This document shows, piece by piece, positions 3,171-28,417 of a DNA stretch of 28,417 bases. The stretch is taken from positions 1 through 28,417 of the IMG/VR virus record IMGVR_UViG_3300050821_002545. The stretch is one strand, 5' to 3'. A program made the position numbers and the translations under genes. Position 1 is the stretch's first letter. Each line of letters starts with the position of its first letter. The DNA is from a virus. The notes below the pieces were generated by a model. It did not search any database, had not been told where the DNA came from, and saw only the letters and a list, made by a program, of their open reading frames with translations.

Positions 3171-4286
3171 GTGCAATGGTTCCGTTGTCTTCCGGTCGTT
3201 GTATTGATTTGCGGGGTGCTGGCCTTTCCGCTGCAAGGCCGTTCCTTTTATCACGGTAGTATTAATCCGTGGGCTGGATTCCTGCCGACTTGTAGCGTCA
3301 CCAACAATGACAGCAGCATTACGAATTGCCCATCGAATATAAGATTTAGAGATTTCTCGACGCTGACTCCTTACGCCAGCAATCCCGTCCTTGCCAATAA
3401 TCAGACGTTCAACACGAGTTCTCAGGACGGCCCGTTCACGCGGGCCGAAAACTCGATCAGCGGTACGTTCTATAATCTCAGCGAGGTGCAAAAATCCGGC
3501 GACTGTGCGCTATGCTTCAACATCGCGTCATCGAGCGGCACGCCGTTAAGCTGGACATTTGCCGGAACCAATCCTGTCATTAACGGGACCGGGACAACTA
3601 CGTGGGATAGCAAATATCTACTGCATCCGTCTTTGACACCATGCAGTCAATTTACATGGTGCGCGTATTACGGAGCGCTTGATGCTAACGGTAACGCCTC
3701 GATTGGGTTCGCATCAGCCACCAATCCATTAGGCCCGTACACCAAACAAGGACAGGTGATCGACTGTTGCTCGGATACCCATAATCAACCGGCGCTCCCG
3801 AGCGTAATTCATATTGGGTCGCAATTGGTTATGTACGTGGCCATCGGAAATGCTGGCGGCGGCAACACCGACTACACGCTTGATTACTACACCTCTTCGG
3901 CCTCCGACGGCGTGAACTGGACCAGACAAGGCACCGCGCTCCAGGCTCTCAATGCTGATTTTAATTCTGGTTACAACGCCGGAGTTTTTGATCCGTTCGT
4001 ATTCAAAAACTCTCACGGCTTTTACGAGATGGTCTATACAGTTGGCAGCACGCCATCTGGCTTGGGATTCTTTCAGCAGCTTGGCTATGCCGTCTCAGCA
4101 GATGGCTTTACGTGGTACAAGTATCAGGCGGGACCGATCTTCAATTGGACAGGAAGTGCGTCGCATCCGAACTATGCCGGCGACGGCTCATTCTACGAGG
4201 ATGGAACGACGTTCTATTTCTGCTACGCCTTTCTGACGAACGGCGCCACTACGAATGGGCAATGCAGCCTGATGGCGGATCATTAA
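3171..4286 (+). CDS. Exported five-bladed beta-propeller glycosidase-like protein (GH43/GH32-type fold)
   Basis: The 371-residue product starts at a GTG right after the previous TGA and opens with MQWFRCLPVVVLICGVLAFPLQG, an export signal. The body shows repeated blade-like strands ending in aromatic residues: FTWCAYYGALDANGNASIGFASATNPLGPY, IHIGSQLVMYVAIGN, FDPFVFKNSHGFYEMVYT, LGYAVSADGFTWYKY and GDGSFYEDGTTFYFCYAF. The patterns DPFVFK-G-YEMVYT and SADGxTW are typical of the GH43/GH32/GH68 five-bladed propeller superfamily. Acidic residues sit in the expected positions, but I cannot assign the catalytic triad by eye. About ten cysteines follow the signal, including SGDCALC and DCCSD. This is the last gene of the exported cassette; a promoter-bearing gap follows. 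Likely role: recognition or cleavage of host polysaccharide outside the cytoplasm. Confidence 0.55.
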   Translation: MQWFRCLPVVVLICGVLAFPLQGRSFYHGSINPWAGFLPTCSVTNNDSSITNCPSNIRFRDFSTLTPYASNPVLANNQTFNTSSQDGPFTRAENSISGTFYNLSEVQKSGDCALCFNIASSSGTPLSWTFAGTNPVINGTGTTTWDSKYLLHPSLTPCSQFTWCAYYGALDANGNASIGFASATNPLGPYTKQGQVIDCCSDTHNQPALPSVIHIGSQLVMYVAIGNAGGGNTDYTLDYYTSSASDGVNWTRQGTALQALNADFNSGYNAGVFDPFVFKNSHGFYEMVYTVGSTPSGLGFFQQLGYAVSADGFTWYKYQAGPIFNWTGSASHPNYAGDGSFYEDGTTFYFCYAFLTNGATTNGQCSLMADH

Positions 4287-23485: not shown

Positions 23486-23710
23486 ATGGAAGCTTGGGCT
23501 TCGCTTATCGTCTCTATCGCGACGTTGATAACCGCAACCGGAGCGGTGGTGTTGGGTATCTTAAATCGCACGAAGATAGACGAGAATATCAATAAGACGA
23601 ATGAGGTTCATGTTTTATTTAATAGCCGAATGGACCAGTTGCTGAAGGCTAATGGTTTAGTACAAAGAGCAGCAGGGGCTCAGGAGGAACGGGATCGGAA
23701 TAATTCCTAA
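23486..23710 (+). CDS. Small single-pass membrane protein
   Basis: The product is 74 residues. AGGAGGGG just before the ATG is a strong ribosome binding site. A membrane helix (AWASLIVSIATLITATGAVVLGIL, residues 3-26) is followed by NRTKIDENINKTNEVHVLFNSRMDQLLKA and a polar tail. The plan is the same as that of the preceding gene, so the two may work together. A holin or anti-holin accessory is possible; no family is recognised. Its TAA overlaps the stop codon of the convergent ATPase gene. Confidence 0.6.
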   Translation: MEAWASLIVSIATLITATGAVVLGILNRTKIDENINKTNEVHVLFNSRMDQLLKANGLVQRAAGAQEERDRNNS

Positions 23711-24912
23711 CCCGCAGGCAAAGCCGGTACGGTTGACCAAGTTCCGTTATCCCCATCGAATTCAATTAGACAAGATACTTGCATTAGTTTCAGGATTGGT
23801 AATACCTTCTGTGCAGGCACCAGCCGGGACATGAACGCTATTACTCTCCGCTCTGGGCACGGCTGGTTCGCAAGGATGAATTCCAAAATTTGATCCTGAG
23901 ATCGGGCATCTTCAGTGACCTGACCTTCTAGGAAGATTGCTGTCATACTTAACTCCATAGCTATCAGCCATTCTTGGCAGGTTTGGAAATCTTCAAGCTC
24001 GACGCGCATGGACTTGCGGTCTATGGCGGCGATCATCGAGAGCTTTAAGGCAAGAGCTCCTCTTCTGGAATTGTAATCATCCAATAATGGATGCCGGGGG
24101 CCAGTAGAGTCAGAGGTTGATTCCCAGATTGTATAAGCATCTTTGTAAGATTGACTAATACCCATTCTTCCTGAGATTTCGGCGATGGATTTAAGATCGG
24201 CAATGAGGGAACTTGGGACTTCCACTTGTTCCGTTTCAAAGGTATTTCTCCTTCGCTTCTGACTTGAGTAAACCATCACGGTGCGTCCAGTCAGCCCTTG
24301 CGTCCAGGCCTGCTGGGGCATGATGTCCATTAGGTTAGTCGGGGTCGAGCCACAGAGCACATTCATATTCGGGTTTTCGATCGCGATATGGAGCTTGGAA
24401 GTCCGGCGGGTTTCTTCGTAGTAGTTGTTGTCGTAGAACTTAGTCAGCGCCGCCACCATTTCCTTATTCCGTTCGTGCATTAAAATCGACAATTCGTCCA
24501 CAGCCACAAACATAGTATTGTATTCGTACACCTCCCCAATCCCGGCTACAAACTTCCGGTGGTATTCGTTCAGCGCGTCCACCATGGAGGCTTTTGTCAG
24601 GGAACTTGGGGAGAGGTTCGTCGCGTCGGCTTGTCGAATTATATCTGTTACTGCATCTATAACGCGTGTTTTTCCAGTGCCAGAAGGGCCTACGAGAATA
24701 GTATACAAGTTTGGATAAAGTGGCTTTCCGGTATCCATCCAAACTTTCCGCTCTAGCGTAGCTGCAATGCACGAAATCCCTCCCCAGGTCAGAAATACCT
24801 CAGGACTTGACGCGTAACTTCCCACGTGGTCTTTGAATGACTCGATCCAGGATAGGAGTCTCCGGCGTCCTTTGCCGTTTGTCGCCGGGCTTTTTAATTC
24901 TTTTTTCATCAC
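23707..24912 (-). CDS. DUF3987-like phage ATPase/helicase-type protein
   Basis: The 401-residue product starts at GTG 24912, with an ATG one codon later as an equal alternative. Residues 35-75 (SSPEVFLTWGGISCIAATLERKVWMDTGKPLYPNLYTILVG) form the opening typical of DUF3987-family proteins, leading into a Walker A motif GPSGTGKT (75-82). Walker B is at FVAVDEL (D139, E140). STPTNLMDIMP with GLTGRTVMVYSS at about 189-220 resembles sensor/arginine-finger regions of this group. The C-terminal part is helical. Proteins of this kind occur in phage replication modules and may act as helicase or primase-linked motors. It follows the endonuclease VII-like gene by only two bases, downstream of the polymerase in the same direction. 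Substrate is unknown. Confidence 0.7.
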   Translation of the reverse strand: MMKKELKSPATNGKGRRRLLSWIESFKDHVGSYASSPEVFLTWGGISCIAATLERKVWMDTGKPLYPNLYTILVGPSGTGKTRVIDAVTDIIRQADATNLSPSSLTKASMVDALNEYHRKFVAGIGEVYEYNTMFVAVDELSILMHERNKEMVAALTKFYDNNYYEETRRTSKLHIAIENPNMNVLCGSTPTNLMDIMPQQAWTQGLTGRTVMVYSSQKRRRNTFETEQVEVPSSLIADLKSIAEISGRMGISQSYKDAYTIWESTSDSTGPRHPLLDDYNSRRGALALKLSMIAAIDRKSMRVELEDFQTCQEWLIAMELSMTAIFLEGQVTEDARSQDQILEFILANQPCPERRVIAFMSRLVPAQKVLPILKLMQVSCLIEFDGDNGTWSTVPALPAG

Positions 24913-24914
24913 AG

Positions 24915-25355
24915 TTAAACATATTTGGCACGATATTTAAGGGCTTTGGATAACCATTCTTCGTCATCTAAACTTGACATAAGTGTATTGCACCGATGAC
25001 ATAACACACCACGAATTTCACCTGTAGTATGATTATGATCCATTTTAGCAGATGACCTCATCCCTAGAAGGTAATCAAAAGATATACCTGTATCACAAAT
25101 AGCACATTTATACTCTTGTTCCTCTAATATCTTATCTCTATGTTTACCGTTTTGTTTTCTTCCAGAAGAACTGTTGACTTTACAACTTTTACACTGCCTC
25201 TTAAAGCCGTCGGTACTATGCGGATCATTACCGAAATATTTAGAGAAAATAAATTCGCTGGTCTTCTGTTCCTCTGTACCAAAAACTACTAGGTCACAGG
25301 ACGGGCATCGCTTTATAAATCCTCCGAACGCACTTTCCCATTCAAATCCTGGCAC
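24915..25355 (-). CDS. Endonuclease VII-like HNH (His-Me finger) nuclease
   Basis: The 146-residue product starts with GTG 25355; AAGGGGG (reverse complement of 25362-25368) lies six bases upstream. Two cysteine pairs (C17/C20 and C55/C58) suggest an N-terminal zinc ribbon. A second pair, CAIC (84-87), and CHRC (119-122) frame the DHNH core (106-109) with GEIRGVLCHRCN, the signature of recombination endonuclease VII (T4 gp49-type, PF02945). T4 endonuclease VII resolves branched DNA. Many phage homologues of this short type behave as mobile free-standing nucleases. The coding DNA is clearly richer in A and T than the neighbouring polymerase. Its start overlaps the polymerase end by 14 bases, as expected for a mobile gene that landed at a gene end. 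Confidence 0.85.
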   Translation of the reverse strand: MPGFEWESAFGGFIKRCPSCDLVVFGTEEQKTSEFIFSKYFGNDPHSTDGFKRQCKSCKVNSSSGRKQNGKHRDKILEEQEYKCAICDTGISFDYLLGMRSSAKMDHNHTTGEIRGVLCHRCNTLMSSLDDEEWLSKALKYRAKYV

Positions 25356-26853
25356 GTCTTACCCCCTTGTTGATTACCCTATCTAGAATAGATATTTCTG
25401 GTGTCCTTTTTCTTCTATCTTCCCCTTTATAACTTTTGAGCCCATCTGGATTGGTTTCTTCGTCATAAGTACCCCAGTTCCAGCCCGTTTTGCAATCGGT
25501 TGGGATTAATAGCTCACGCCCATGGTTAAGCTCAATCGGATATTCCATTTGCTTTTGTATAATTGGAATAACCTTATCCTCCTTATCCTCAGGGTATTGA
25601 ACCAATATAGCATCGTGAATCTGTAAGAGTAGCTGACAGTTGTTGGCGCGCCAGACTTGAAGCATTGCCGAATTAACAATATCTGCCAAAGAACCCTGGG
25701 GGCTGTAGGCGATTGCTTCACGAATGACCGCATCATCGTTTCTTCTCCCAAAGAACCATCTTAGTCTCCCTGTTAGTGTGGTTAGGTTCCCTTCCGTCCA
25801 AAGCTGGTGCCTCACCCACTCATGCCACCTCTCATGCGCCGGGAATGCTCTGAAATAGCGCGGTTGGAATTGCTCGATAATCCCCTGTTCGATTTTTGTT
25901 TGGTTAGAGATAGTCCCCGGCTTACCACCATAGTTAGTCCCATGACCGATTTTCTTACACATGAACCGGTAAGAATAGTGACGATAAAACGGTTGTTCCG
26001 CAATGGCCTTGTCAGCTTCAATTTCATTGGTCCATTTAAGGGTGGGCCAGCAAAGTTTCGCAACGCTCGTATGGAGGTCGCCCCCTTCGCAGGCGTCAAG
26101 GTAAGTACCATCATGAAAGAGGTCCCATTCGATTGCTCCGACACAGTAGGATTCTCCTTGCTTGGTGTCGATGTAGGCTAGTTTCATTCCGGGGTCGGCA
26201 ACAAATACTGAACGTAGAGCTTCTTCGATATTTTGAAGATTGGTCCCCGTTCCGAATTCGGAAAAGGAACTTGATAATCTGCCTGTAGATGTACCTGCAA
26301 TGTTGAGACTAGTCCGTATTCTTCCGTCCGGATCAACATCAGTGCGGAGCATAGATATCTTTTTCTGTAAGTCTCGCATAGCCAGAATATGAGCCACAAT
26401 AGGGCGCGCTTGGTAATACCCATCGAGTTTTTCGAGAGCGTCGCGATCACAGGTCGGGCGGCCGCCTTTTCTGATAACGGGGATTCCGAGAGTTTCGTAG
26501 AAGATTCGCTGAAGGTCCTTCGGGTTTCCCCATTTCCAATCCCAGATGTCAAGGGCTTCTCCTACTATATGGTAGAGGTTGGCTTCCAGCGCGCAGAGGG
26601 ATTCGTAGAATTGTTCACAGACTTCCTCCTTCCGCGCTTTGTCGATCTTGATGCCCCTGACGCGCATCTCGAGGATTGGGGCTTGGAGGGACTTCTCGAA
26701 TTCATAAACCGCTCTTGTTTGATTAGTTAACTGCGGTTCAAGAACCTCAAAGACTTCAGCGGTAATCGTAGCGTCTTTTCCGTTATATACCCAATCAGCT
26801 TCTTGTGAGGAAAGATCAGAGGGGGAAACAGTATCAGTTGAGATGATCTTCAT
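25342..26853 (-). CDS. Family A DNA polymerase, polymerase domain plus ExoIII segment
   Basis: The product is 503 residues from ATG 26853, directly after the in-frame TGA of the upstream gene. Residues 21-35 (WVYNGKDATITAEVF) are the ExoIII Y-x3-D motif (Y23, D27) of a 3'-5' exonuclease whose ExoI and ExoII lie in the upstream frame. The polymerase part runs from about 45 to 465: TSTGRLSSSFSEFGTGTNLQNIE (188-210, the STGR and N-Q-N-I elements), motif A YIDTKQGES (D229), motif B R296-x3-K300-x3-H304-x3-YG308 and motif C QIHDA (H413, D414). The position equivalent to E. coli F762 is His, and motif C has HDA in place of HDE. The C-terminus, after PTDCKTGWNWG, is a basic tail. It replicates the phage genome. 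The length fits a T7-type polymerase without its exonuclease half. Confidence 0.88.
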   Translation of the reverse strand: MKIISTDTVSPSDLSSQEADWVYNGKDATITAEVFEVLEPQLTNQTRAVYEFEKSLQAPILEMRVRGIKIDKARKEEVCEQFYESLCALEANLYHIVGEALDIWDWKWGNPKDLQRIFYETLGIPVIRKGGRPTCDRDALEKLDGYYQARPIVAHILAMRDLQKKISMLRTDVDPDGRIRTSLNIAGTSTGRLSSSFSEFGTGTNLQNIEEALRSVFVADPGMKLAYIDTKQGESYCVGAIEWDLFHDGTYLDACEGGDLHTSVAKLCWPTLKWTNEIEADKAIAEQPFYRHYSYRFMCKKIGHGTNYGGKPGTISNQTKIEQGIIEQFQPRYFRAFPAHERWHEWVRHQLWTEGNLTTLTGRLRWFFGRRNDDAVIREAIAYSPQGSLADIVNSAMLQVWRANNCQLLLQIHDAILVQYPEDKEDKVIPIIQKQMEYPIELNHGRELLIPTDCKTGWNWGTYDEETNPDGLKSYKGEDRRKRTPEISILDRVINKGVRRARI

Positions 26854-26856
26854 TCA
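26851..26856 (-). other. In-frame TGA-ATG junction inside the polymerase exonuclease domain
   Basis: Reading the minus strand, AAG TGA ATG AAG keeps one frame across the stop, so translation through TGA would give a single protein of about 842 residues: UDG-like, ExoI, ExoII, ExoIII and polymerase. AGGGG (reverse complement of 26865-26869) is 11 bases before the ATG, so separate initiation is also possible. Confidence 0.75.
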
Positions 26857-27870
26857 CTTATCGGCCCCTATGGTATCAGATCTATAATGTTTCCAAGCAT
26901 CTTCATCACAGTAAATCGAGCCTAGATAGCCCAGCGACTTGAGACTTTCAGGTTGTAAACTGTGGTGGAGCAGCATAGTATCGTCACCAGCCCCTTTGGT
27001 AACTATACCAGTGGCACGTAGTATGAACGTCAAGTCATAGAGTCCATTCTGGAAGAGCTTTGGAATTGGGCATTGAAGGACATCTTTAACAAAATCCCAA
27101 GCCATTCGTTCAGTAGCAGCATCTGGCCAGTAACGACCTCCCTTTTTTCTTCGGTCATAGAAAGGAACAACGATTCCAACTCGTGAGTCGGGCGCAAACC
27201 CAATACATAGCACCTGATTTCCACTGGTCTCAATATCGCAAGAAATTCTTCTAGCGATTCGTAGGAAGCGTCGCTGAAAGTCATATAAGTCCTCGATGGA
27301 TGGTTCGATCCAGATTTCGCGATGGGGCCGGCGAAGTTCGGGGAAGTGGGACTGGCGTTCGGCTTTTTGCAAGTCCATGACCATGGTGGGACGTAGGTCC
27401 CAATTACGGGTCACGGCTGCGGGGTTATATGTGGGCAGGACTTTCCGGCTAGGAGCCGTGAGGCTAGCCAACTCAGTTGTTCCTCTATACTTTGTGATTT
27501 TAGTTTTTCCACACAGGGCCCACAAAGCTTGATTTCCGCACGCGACAATGATATTTGGCCGATAAGAGGTAAGTTCCTCTCGTAGACGTGCAAGTTCACC
27601 GTCATACTCAGATCGTATATATTTTTTACCTTCATACGGCGGGTAGCCTTCGATCGCTTCATCTTCCTCTCCACAGAGTTCCTCCAAGACCGATTTCTCA
27701 CTATCCAGGAAGAAGTTGAACACGTTGGTTAGTAGGCATTCGTTCCGGTCTATACCGGCGTCTTCGAGCATGCGAGTTAGTTCTCTTCCCGAATATCCCA
27801 CGAAAGGGCTTCTGGCAGCGTTCTCCTCGTGGCCCCAGAAGCCTCCTACTAGCGCGATGCGGTTAGTCAC
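26854..27870 (-). CDS. Uracil-DNA-glycosylase-like domain fused to the N-terminal part of a DnaQ-like 3'-5' exonuclease
   Basis: The product is 338 residues from GTG 27870, which overlaps the upstream gene's TAA and gives TNRIALVGGFWGHEE; a longer frame runs back into that gene without family features. Residues 4-170 follow the family 4 UDG plan: a glycine-rich opening (VGGFWG), FVGYSGRELTRMLEDAGIDRNECLLTNVFNF, PNIIVACGNQALWAL, and a final YNPAAV (148-153) in place of the HP-S/A loop. From about 205, ISCDIETSG (ExoI, D212/E214) and FQNGLYDLTF (ExoII, N275/D279) mark the exonuclease. The protein ends in YLGSIYCDEDAWKHYRSD and stops before ExoIII. The UDG-like part could recognise uracil or a modified base, or be structural. 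UDG-like domains attached to phage family A polymerases have precedent in SPO1-like phages, as I recall. Confidence 0.8.
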   Translation of the reverse strand: MTNRIALVGGFWGHEENAARSPFVGYSGRELTRMLEDAGIDRNECLLTNVFNFFLDSEKSVLEELCGEEDEAIEGYPPYEGKKYIRSEYDGELARLREELTSYRPNIIVACGNQALWALCGKTKITKYRGTTELASLTAPSRKVLPTYNPAAVTRNWDLRPTMVMDLQKAERQSHFPELRRPHREIWIEPSIEDLYDFQRRFLRIARRISCDIETSGNQVLCIGFAPDSRVGIVVPFYDRRKKGGRYWPDAATERMAWDFVKDVLQCPIPKLFQNGLYDLTFILRATGIVTKGAGDDTMLLHHSLQPESLKSLGYLGSIYCDEDAWKHYRSDTIGADK

Positions 27871-28216
27871 AGGCTTCCTCAGCGAGCTTGGCGTAGCCGG
27901 CAATGTCAGCCCAATGGTCCTTGAAGTTGGCTTGACCAGAGAGGATACGGGAGAGTTTAAGGGCAATCATATCGAGAGCTTCTTTATGGACACTGGATAA
28001 GTGCTGTCCTCCAGTTTCAAATACCGTCTTTAATCGTTGTGAGAATTCAGCATTGGTTCGAAACGATCCGTGCGTCTTTTCACGTTCGACAAGAAGTGGG
28101 TCGCGGTCTCGTGGTTCAGTGCCCATAAACCAACAATCCTTTATATTAGGGAGAAGACAGAAAATGCCTGCCCCGGGTCTGAAATCGAGTTCCGTTCCAC
28201 ACCCGGGGCACTTCAT
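27863..28216 (-). CDS. DUF6378-like protein with N-terminal zinc-ribbon-type cysteines
   Basis: The product is 117 residues from ATG 28216, chosen because the upstream gene ends at 28218 and GAGG precedes it; an upstream ATG at 28252 lies inside that gene. The first 30 residues (MKCPGCGTELDFRPGAGIFCLLPNIKDCW) contain CPGC and two further Cys, a likely zinc-binding ribbon. Residues 45-117 (VEREKTHGSFRTNAEFSQRLKTVF, HKEALDMIALKLSRILSGQANFKDHWADIAGYAKLA) match the phage DUF6378 pattern: E-K-THG-x-F, then an A-L-x-M-I-x-x-K-x-x-R-I-L-x-G segment and DHWxDIAGY. The helices have a look of nucleotide-pyrophosphohydrolase-type (all-alpha) proteins, but no activity is established. It sits with replication genes and overlaps the next one by eight bases. 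Confidence 0.75.
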   Translation of the reverse strand: MKCPGCGTELDFRPGAGIFCLLPNIKDCWFMGTEPRDRDPLLVEREKTHGSFRTNAEFSQRLKTVFETGGQHLSSVHKEALDMIALKLSRILSGQANFKDHWADIAGYAKLAEEACD

Positions 28217-28217
28217 G

Positions 28218-28417
28218 TTAATCCTCGCTATCGCTATCGTCGTCTTCCTCATCCGCTTCCGTGACCGGCATGGTTCTCGCTAAGTCCGAGAACGTTCCCT
28301 GCCCATCCGTACGCGGCTTTGCGCGCATAACCGCGATTATCTCGCAGCCAGCTGCCTCCGGGATCAGCTTGCGTAGACTGGACCCTTCTACATCAAGCCC
28401 GCAGTGTTGGAAGAATT
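28218..28417 (-). CDS. C-terminal fragment of a phage replication protein, possibly ssDNA-binding
   Basis: The frame is open from the right edge of the window (first full codon at 28415) to the TAA at 28220-28218, giving about 65 residues: FFQHCGLDVEGSSLRKLI, PEAAGCEIIAVMRAKPRTDGQG, TFSDLARTMPV, TEADEEDDDSDSED. A strongly acidic C-terminal tail after a small beta-rich domain is the hallmark of single-stranded DNA-binding proteins such as T7 gp2.5. The beta part also resembles DUF669-type phage proteins. Its place upstream of the DUF6378-like and polymerase genes fits a replication role. The N-terminal part is outside the window, so the call is tentative. Confidence 0.5.
   Translation of the reverse strand, partial: FFQHCGLDVEGSSLRKLIPEAAGCEIIAVMRAKPRTDGQGTFSDLARTMPVTEADEEDDDSDSED

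Follow-up and report, generated by a model that had tools for sequence, protein, structure and literature searches.

A family A DNA polymerase divided between two genes at its proofreading domain in a group of uncultured viruses

The polymerase locus

The stretch of viral DNA analysed here, hereafter the window, comprises the whole 28,417 nucleotides of IMG/VR record IMGVR_UViG_3300050821_002545. As the initial annotation observed directly in the sequence, two contiguous minus-strand open reading frames lie here in one register with a TGA between them (Table 1). Read on that strand, the junction is ...GAT AAG TGA ATG AAG..., the stop being followed at once by the ATG of the second frame (26851-26853). 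The upstream frame encodes 338 amino acids from the GTG at 27870, or 370 if translation begins at a TTG at 27966; the downstream frame encodes 503. Pfam identifies a uracil-DNA glycosylase (UDG) domain in the first and DNA_pol_A (PF00476, 9e-41) in the second, and PHROG 17, a DNA polymerase family, spans both halves in order (profile positions 519-795 and 809-1242).

Motif positions agree with the initial assignment of ExoI and ExoII to the part before the TGA, and of ExoIII and the polymerase to the part after it. The ExoI DxE, ExoII N-x3-D and ExoIII Y-x3-D signatures are all present, spread over two polypeptides; when the family profile is set against Klenow, they correspond to FDTET, QNLKYD and YAAED, respectively. 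The polymerase part carries the residues expected of DNA_pol_A, with conservation of the motif A Asp, the motif B R/K and the motif C HD.

Several further features were recorded in these proteins. Despite its PF03167 match, the UDG of the window has GG instead of the conserved GE in motif 1 and N instead of H in the last motif. Both changes recur together in locus L045, on another branch of the tree described below, and the UDG of both may, judging from these residues, be inactive or altered. At the equivalent of E. coli Pol I position 762 (R-x3-K-x3-X-x3-Y; window 25942-25944), a His is found in 65 of 65 aligned split proteins and 18 of 20 undivided ones. The passages on this position in PMC6302109 and PMC13228545 discuss Tyr, Phe and Leu only and link the residue type to phage life style. 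A basic C-terminal tail, NPDGLKSYKG.D.RKR...ILDR (window 25342-25430), is conserved in the split clade, and the undivided relatives in the alignment are without it.

Table 1. Features of the divided polymerase locus and its neighbours in the window.
Feature	Position	Strand	Remark
Gene 1: UDG and N-terminal part of 3'-5' exonuclease domain, 338 aa, GTG start, TGA stop	26854..27870	minus	
Uracil-DNA glycosylase superfamily domain, residues 4-160	27391..27861	minus	Pfam PF03167, 1e-15
ExoI motif CDIETSG, D212 and E214, residues 211-217	27220..27240	minus	D and E invariant in split and undivided relatives
ExoII motif NGLYD, N275 and D279, residues 275-279	27034..27048	minus	N and D invariant
Further exonuclease-domain Asp, D297, DTM motif	26980..26982	minus	100% of split rows, 95% of undivided rows
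C-terminal tail of gene 1, WKHYRSDTIGADK	26857..26895	minus	WKxMR..TIKRD(D/E) in relatives
Gene 1 stop, TGA	26854..26856	minus	
Gene 2: C-terminal part of exonuclease domain and family A polymerase, 503 aa, ATG start	25342..26853	minus	
N-terminal extension of gene 2, MKIISTD...	26788..26853	minus	Start codon co-located in relatives
ExoIII motif YNGKD, gene 2 residues 23-27; Y and D would complete the DEDDy site	26773..26787	minus	Y and D in 100% of split and undivided rows
Polymerase motif A Asp (YIDTKQGE)	26167..26169	minus	D 100% conserved
Polymerase motif B, RFMCKKIGHGTNYGG	25924..25968	minus	His at equivalent of E. coli Pol I 762
Polymerase motif C His-Asp	25612..25617	minus	100% conserved
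Upstream neighbour, DUF6378, overlapping gene 1 start	27863..28252	minus	
Downstream neighbour, endonuclease VII-like (HNH)	24915..25355	minus	14 bp overlap with gene 2 end
Downstream DUF3987 ATPase, primase/helicase-like	23707..24912	minus	

Distribution and origin of the split

Is the interruption peculiar to the window, or a property of its lineage? IMG/VR was scanned with the downstream half, which yielded 80 loci at 50-67% identity. Alignment of homologues, as the initial annotation had proposed, bore out a split conserved at one site: wherever both halves can be seen, in 72 of 72 loci (window included), the protein is divided between ExoII and ExoIII, and none is fused; several of these loci are near-copies, and the counts are not all independent. 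A further nine loci have no visible upstream half; in these, the sequence ahead of the match is no longer than 170 bp. Locus L047, in which the start of gene 2 is frameshifted, was excluded from the frame counts, leaving 71 scorable loci.

The two genes abut in 30 of these 71, with a stop-to-start distance of -4 to +29 bp, and in the other 41 they lie 134 to 1071 bp apart. Among the abutting pairs the frame offset is +2 in 21, 0 (the register of the window) in five and +1 in four. Gene 1 ends with TAA (29 loci), TGA (29) or TAG (14), so that the TGA itself, unlike the split, did not hold up as a conserved feature. Gene 2 begins at the same place across the 71 scorable loci, with ATG in 62, GTG in five and TTG in four. 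The in-frame contiguity of the window is thus incidental, since the shared register is not conserved among abutting loci; by this comparison it is the split that is conserved.

Could the two frames nevertheless be joined by programmed read-through of the TGA, giving some full-length UDG-Exo-Pol beside a truncated UDG-Exo? The frames do abut in one register in the window and in four relatives. As a general mechanism, however, read-through is contradicted by the mixed stops, the occurrence of all three frames and the frequent presence of genes between the halves: only five of 30 abutting loci are in register, genes lie between the halves in 41 of 71, and TAA, TAG and TGA are all used, while a start codon (ATG, GTG or TTG) is kept for gene 2. 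Moreover, no suppressor tRNA was found in the window. We regard read-through as very unlikely. Reassignment of TGA was considered separately and is not supported, given that relatives place TAA or TAG there and that the window holds no tRNA gene.

A second explanation, that a sequencing or assembly error or a recent nonsense mutation has broken a continuous gene, draws on the single base that separates TGA from a sense codon and on an undivided relative, L114, with an isolated in-frame TGA in its UDG part (3485-3487). Close relatives with a sense codon and a single frame were looked for, and no member of the split clade is continuous; the continuous relatives are all distant, about 29-33% identical over the full length. 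The window itself has the N-terminal extension, start site and length typical of split relatives, with the gene 1 tail at its usual place, whereas undivided proteins have a short loop here. This speaks against a sequence mistake, to which we attach next to no probability.

Undivided homologues were found in Microcystis phage Mel-JY34, ctMlz233, Desulfofustis phage LS06-2018-MD01, vir526, ctfzr933 and some 15 IMG/VR contigs. The same split is present in Caulobacter phage Kuura, where gp029 (annotated as hypothetical) is the upstream half and gp026 (DNA polymerase) the downstream half, the two being separated by two small genes; it also occurs in L090, a Kuura relative, and in L117, a contig in a Terriglobia MAG. 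The split lineage is a large group of uncultured, mostly environmental viruses. A tree of 72 concatenated or whole proteins, with about 20 undivided phage polymerases as outgroup, places all 53 split rows together on one side of a branch and requires one change (SH-aLRT 83, and 100 for a 51-row core). This tree was built quickly, and its distant undivided rows sit on long branches. The topology is most simply read as one old fission, never reversed in the sample.

Other break points were seen in and around the undivided group. In its members L094 and L110 the UDG is separate from the exonuclease-polymerase, which constitutes a second break point, and in L086, L108, L109 and L111-L113, relatives of this group, breaks fall inside the polymerase domain, some with an ORF between the parts. 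To judge from the sequences of these last six loci, the UDG-Exo-Pol family splits repeatedly.

What occupies the space between the genes? In most insert-bearing loci the longest ORF fills the gap, often with an overlap of a few bases into each neighbour. Most such ORFs bear no relation to one another, and many are without a match. Those that could be assigned include HNH_3 in L003, L026 and L078 (weakly in L022), endonuclease VII in L064 (3531-4001), a weak GIY-YIG match in L069, a deoxynucleotide monophosphate kinase in L054, DUF6378 in L040 (552-815) and, below the Pfam cut-off, a zinc-ribbon-like protein in L027. An endonuclease VII-like gene thus lies after gene 2 in the window and between the genes in L064. 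Similarly, DUF6378 is found upstream of gene 1 in the window and in the gap in L040, a placement that shows gene movement around the locus. Among the split rows, the tree requires at least 17 switches between having and lacking an insert. The junction behaves as an intergenic place that genes enter and leave.

Phage polymerase genes are known to contain introns, and the HNH and GIY-YIG genes in several gaps could suggest that the gap is, or once was, a self-splicing intron or intein, with a single chain as the mature product. The remaining evidence argues the other way. No Rfam match to an RNA family was found in 13 sources, HNH-bearing loci among these; the 30 abutting loci leave no room for an intron; the gap genes are mostly mutually unrelated; and conserved gene ends terminate and begin the two halves. 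A spliced product is highly improbable.

Conservation of the exonuclease residues on both chains

If the split had abolished proofreading, gene 2 would encode an exonuclease-deficient polymerase and gene 1 a protein acting mainly as a UDG. Splits can indeed separate functions, and the UDG motifs are conserved in most members. However, neither chain shows any variation in its ExoI, ExoII or ExoIII residues, despite identities of only 50-67%: D212, E214, N275, D279 and D297 of the first chain and the ExoIII Tyr and Asp of the second are present in 100% of 65 split rows, compared with 95-100% for the same residues in 20 undivided rows. We therefore consider a loss of proofreading improbable.

In close pairs, the UDG, exonuclease and polymerase parts are all under purifying selection, with dN/dS mostly below 0.2 and about 0.03-0.32 overall; in several of these pairs, evolution is slightly faster over residues 1-55 of subunit 2 (dN/dS up to 0.32). 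Over 62 loci, pairwise distances for one half correlate with those for the other (r = 0.86). Taken together, conservation, selection and correlated distances show the pattern expected of an obligate pair that is still proofreading.

At the junction, split proteins are longer than undivided ones, through a WK..TIKRD(D/E) tail on the first chain and an M(K/R)IIxT head on the second. The tail pattern WKxMR..TIKRD(D/E) is kept in 68 of 72 loci, the window's own version being divergent (TIGADK). We also considered that the main role of the AAG AGG codons in the TIKRD tail is to provide a ribosome-binding site for gene 2, and discarded this idea: the codons occur alike in abutting loci and in those with interposed genes, which indicates that the tail is kept at least for protein reasons. 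Tail and head may well help the two chains meet.

The read-through product was modelled by AlphaFold2 as one connected chain with 26 relatives, undivided ones included (pLDDT 85, pTM 0.80); because of this connected chain and these undivided relatives in the alignment, the model is no test of separate-chain binding. Confidence falls below 50 at residues 330-339, which is the junction, and at 521-548 and 829-842. In a Foldseek search the model matches the Klenow fragment of E. coli Pol I over about 654 alignment columns (E about 1e-27). The cut is predicted by this model to lie in a poorly ordered loop.

A two-subunit polymerase and its known counterparts

The best explanation of these observations, which we hold to be very probable on the sequence evidence, is an old gene fission, fixed in the lineage, that gave rise to a two-subunit proofreading polymerase whose DEDDy site is completed by both subunits. 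That the two halves are separate genes is nearly certain; that their products assemble into one proofreading enzyme is likely. Subunit 1 would consist of the uracil-DNA glycosylase and the exonuclease part with ExoI and ExoII, subunit 2 of the polymerase preceded by the final exonuclease helix, which bears ExoIII. The ancestral fission would have occurred in a surface loop between ExoII and ExoIII and would now be fixed. The subunits would be made separately, in the window from genes that abut, through either independent initiation or ordinary termination followed by re-initiation, and association of the two chains would build the proofreading site, the added ends (TIKRD tail and MKIIxT head) taking the place of the former loop.

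The initial annotation had allowed for two associating polypeptides made by stop-start translation. The comparison favours separate genes, which are found in all 72 loci; the association itself, like proofreading activity and a role for the tails, is what we infer. Stop-start translation is plausible for the 30 abutting pairs and impossible where genes are interposed, and translational coupling is for this reason not the essence of the arrangement. The AGGGG 11 bases before the ATG, proposed to allow re-initiation, is present, but it matches a Shine-Dalgarno sequence weakly, and the form conserved in relatives is a different one.

Alternatively, the split might serve regulation, with subunit 1, made up in part of exonuclease-domain sequence, acting as a fidelity subunit that can dissociate. 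The polymerase subunit would then work with or without the UDG-exonuclease subunit, and the level of subunit 1 would tune proofreading and uracil repair. We think this rather unlikely.

If the composite site of the proposed two-subunit enzyme is real, gene fission can pass through the catalytic centre of a replicase and persist. With Kuura as a cultured representative, the locus offers a natural split-polymerase system of single-group origin, which has undivided outgroups for comparison and in which the gap between the halves repeatedly takes up other genes. It also illustrates how gene callers label half of this enzyme as hypothetical or as a stand-alone UDG, which hides its putative proofreading function.

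How does this arrangement relate to known polymerases? The nearest undivided relatives found, the UDG-Exo-PolA proteins of Mel-JY34, ctMlz233 and LS06-2018-MD01, share domain order and catalytic motifs, but are encoded by one ORF of about 780-830 amino acids with a shorter loop at the place of the split. Kuura, a cultured phage, has the same split as the window but two other genes between the halves; the text of the Kuura paper names only a DNA polymerase (PMC9959647). Kuura is the best model for experiments. In a search of open-licence papers, no account of a polymerase cut between ExoII and ExoIII was found.

Divided replicases of other kinds have been described. In the T4-like Aeromonas phage 25, the parts of the family B polymerase gp43A/B co-purify and are polymerase-active (PMC2988022). 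Like the locus described here, gp43A/B is a replicative phage polymerase made from two neighbouring genes, and its split is associated with a homing endonuclease gene or a non-coding stretch. That system, however, concerns family B and a few T4-like phages, whereas the present one is family A, UDG-fused and clade-wide, is divided within the proofreading site and has many unrelated genes in its gaps. The OM43 phages MEP401 and MEP402 encode a family A polymerase as two ORFs that flank a small unknown one, as do most group I genomes (PMC10580990); there the cut falls inside the polymerase domain, the first ORF comprising the exonuclease and the N-terminal polymerase part, rather than between ExoII and ExoIII. 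In jumbo phages, two stand-alone proteins are thought to reconstitute a Pol III catalytic module (PMC7824862), which belongs to family C and comprises the core catalytic and template-binding parts only, without other Pol III domains. Split phage polymerases are thus already known; a clade-wide split through the proofreading site adds a further variant to them.
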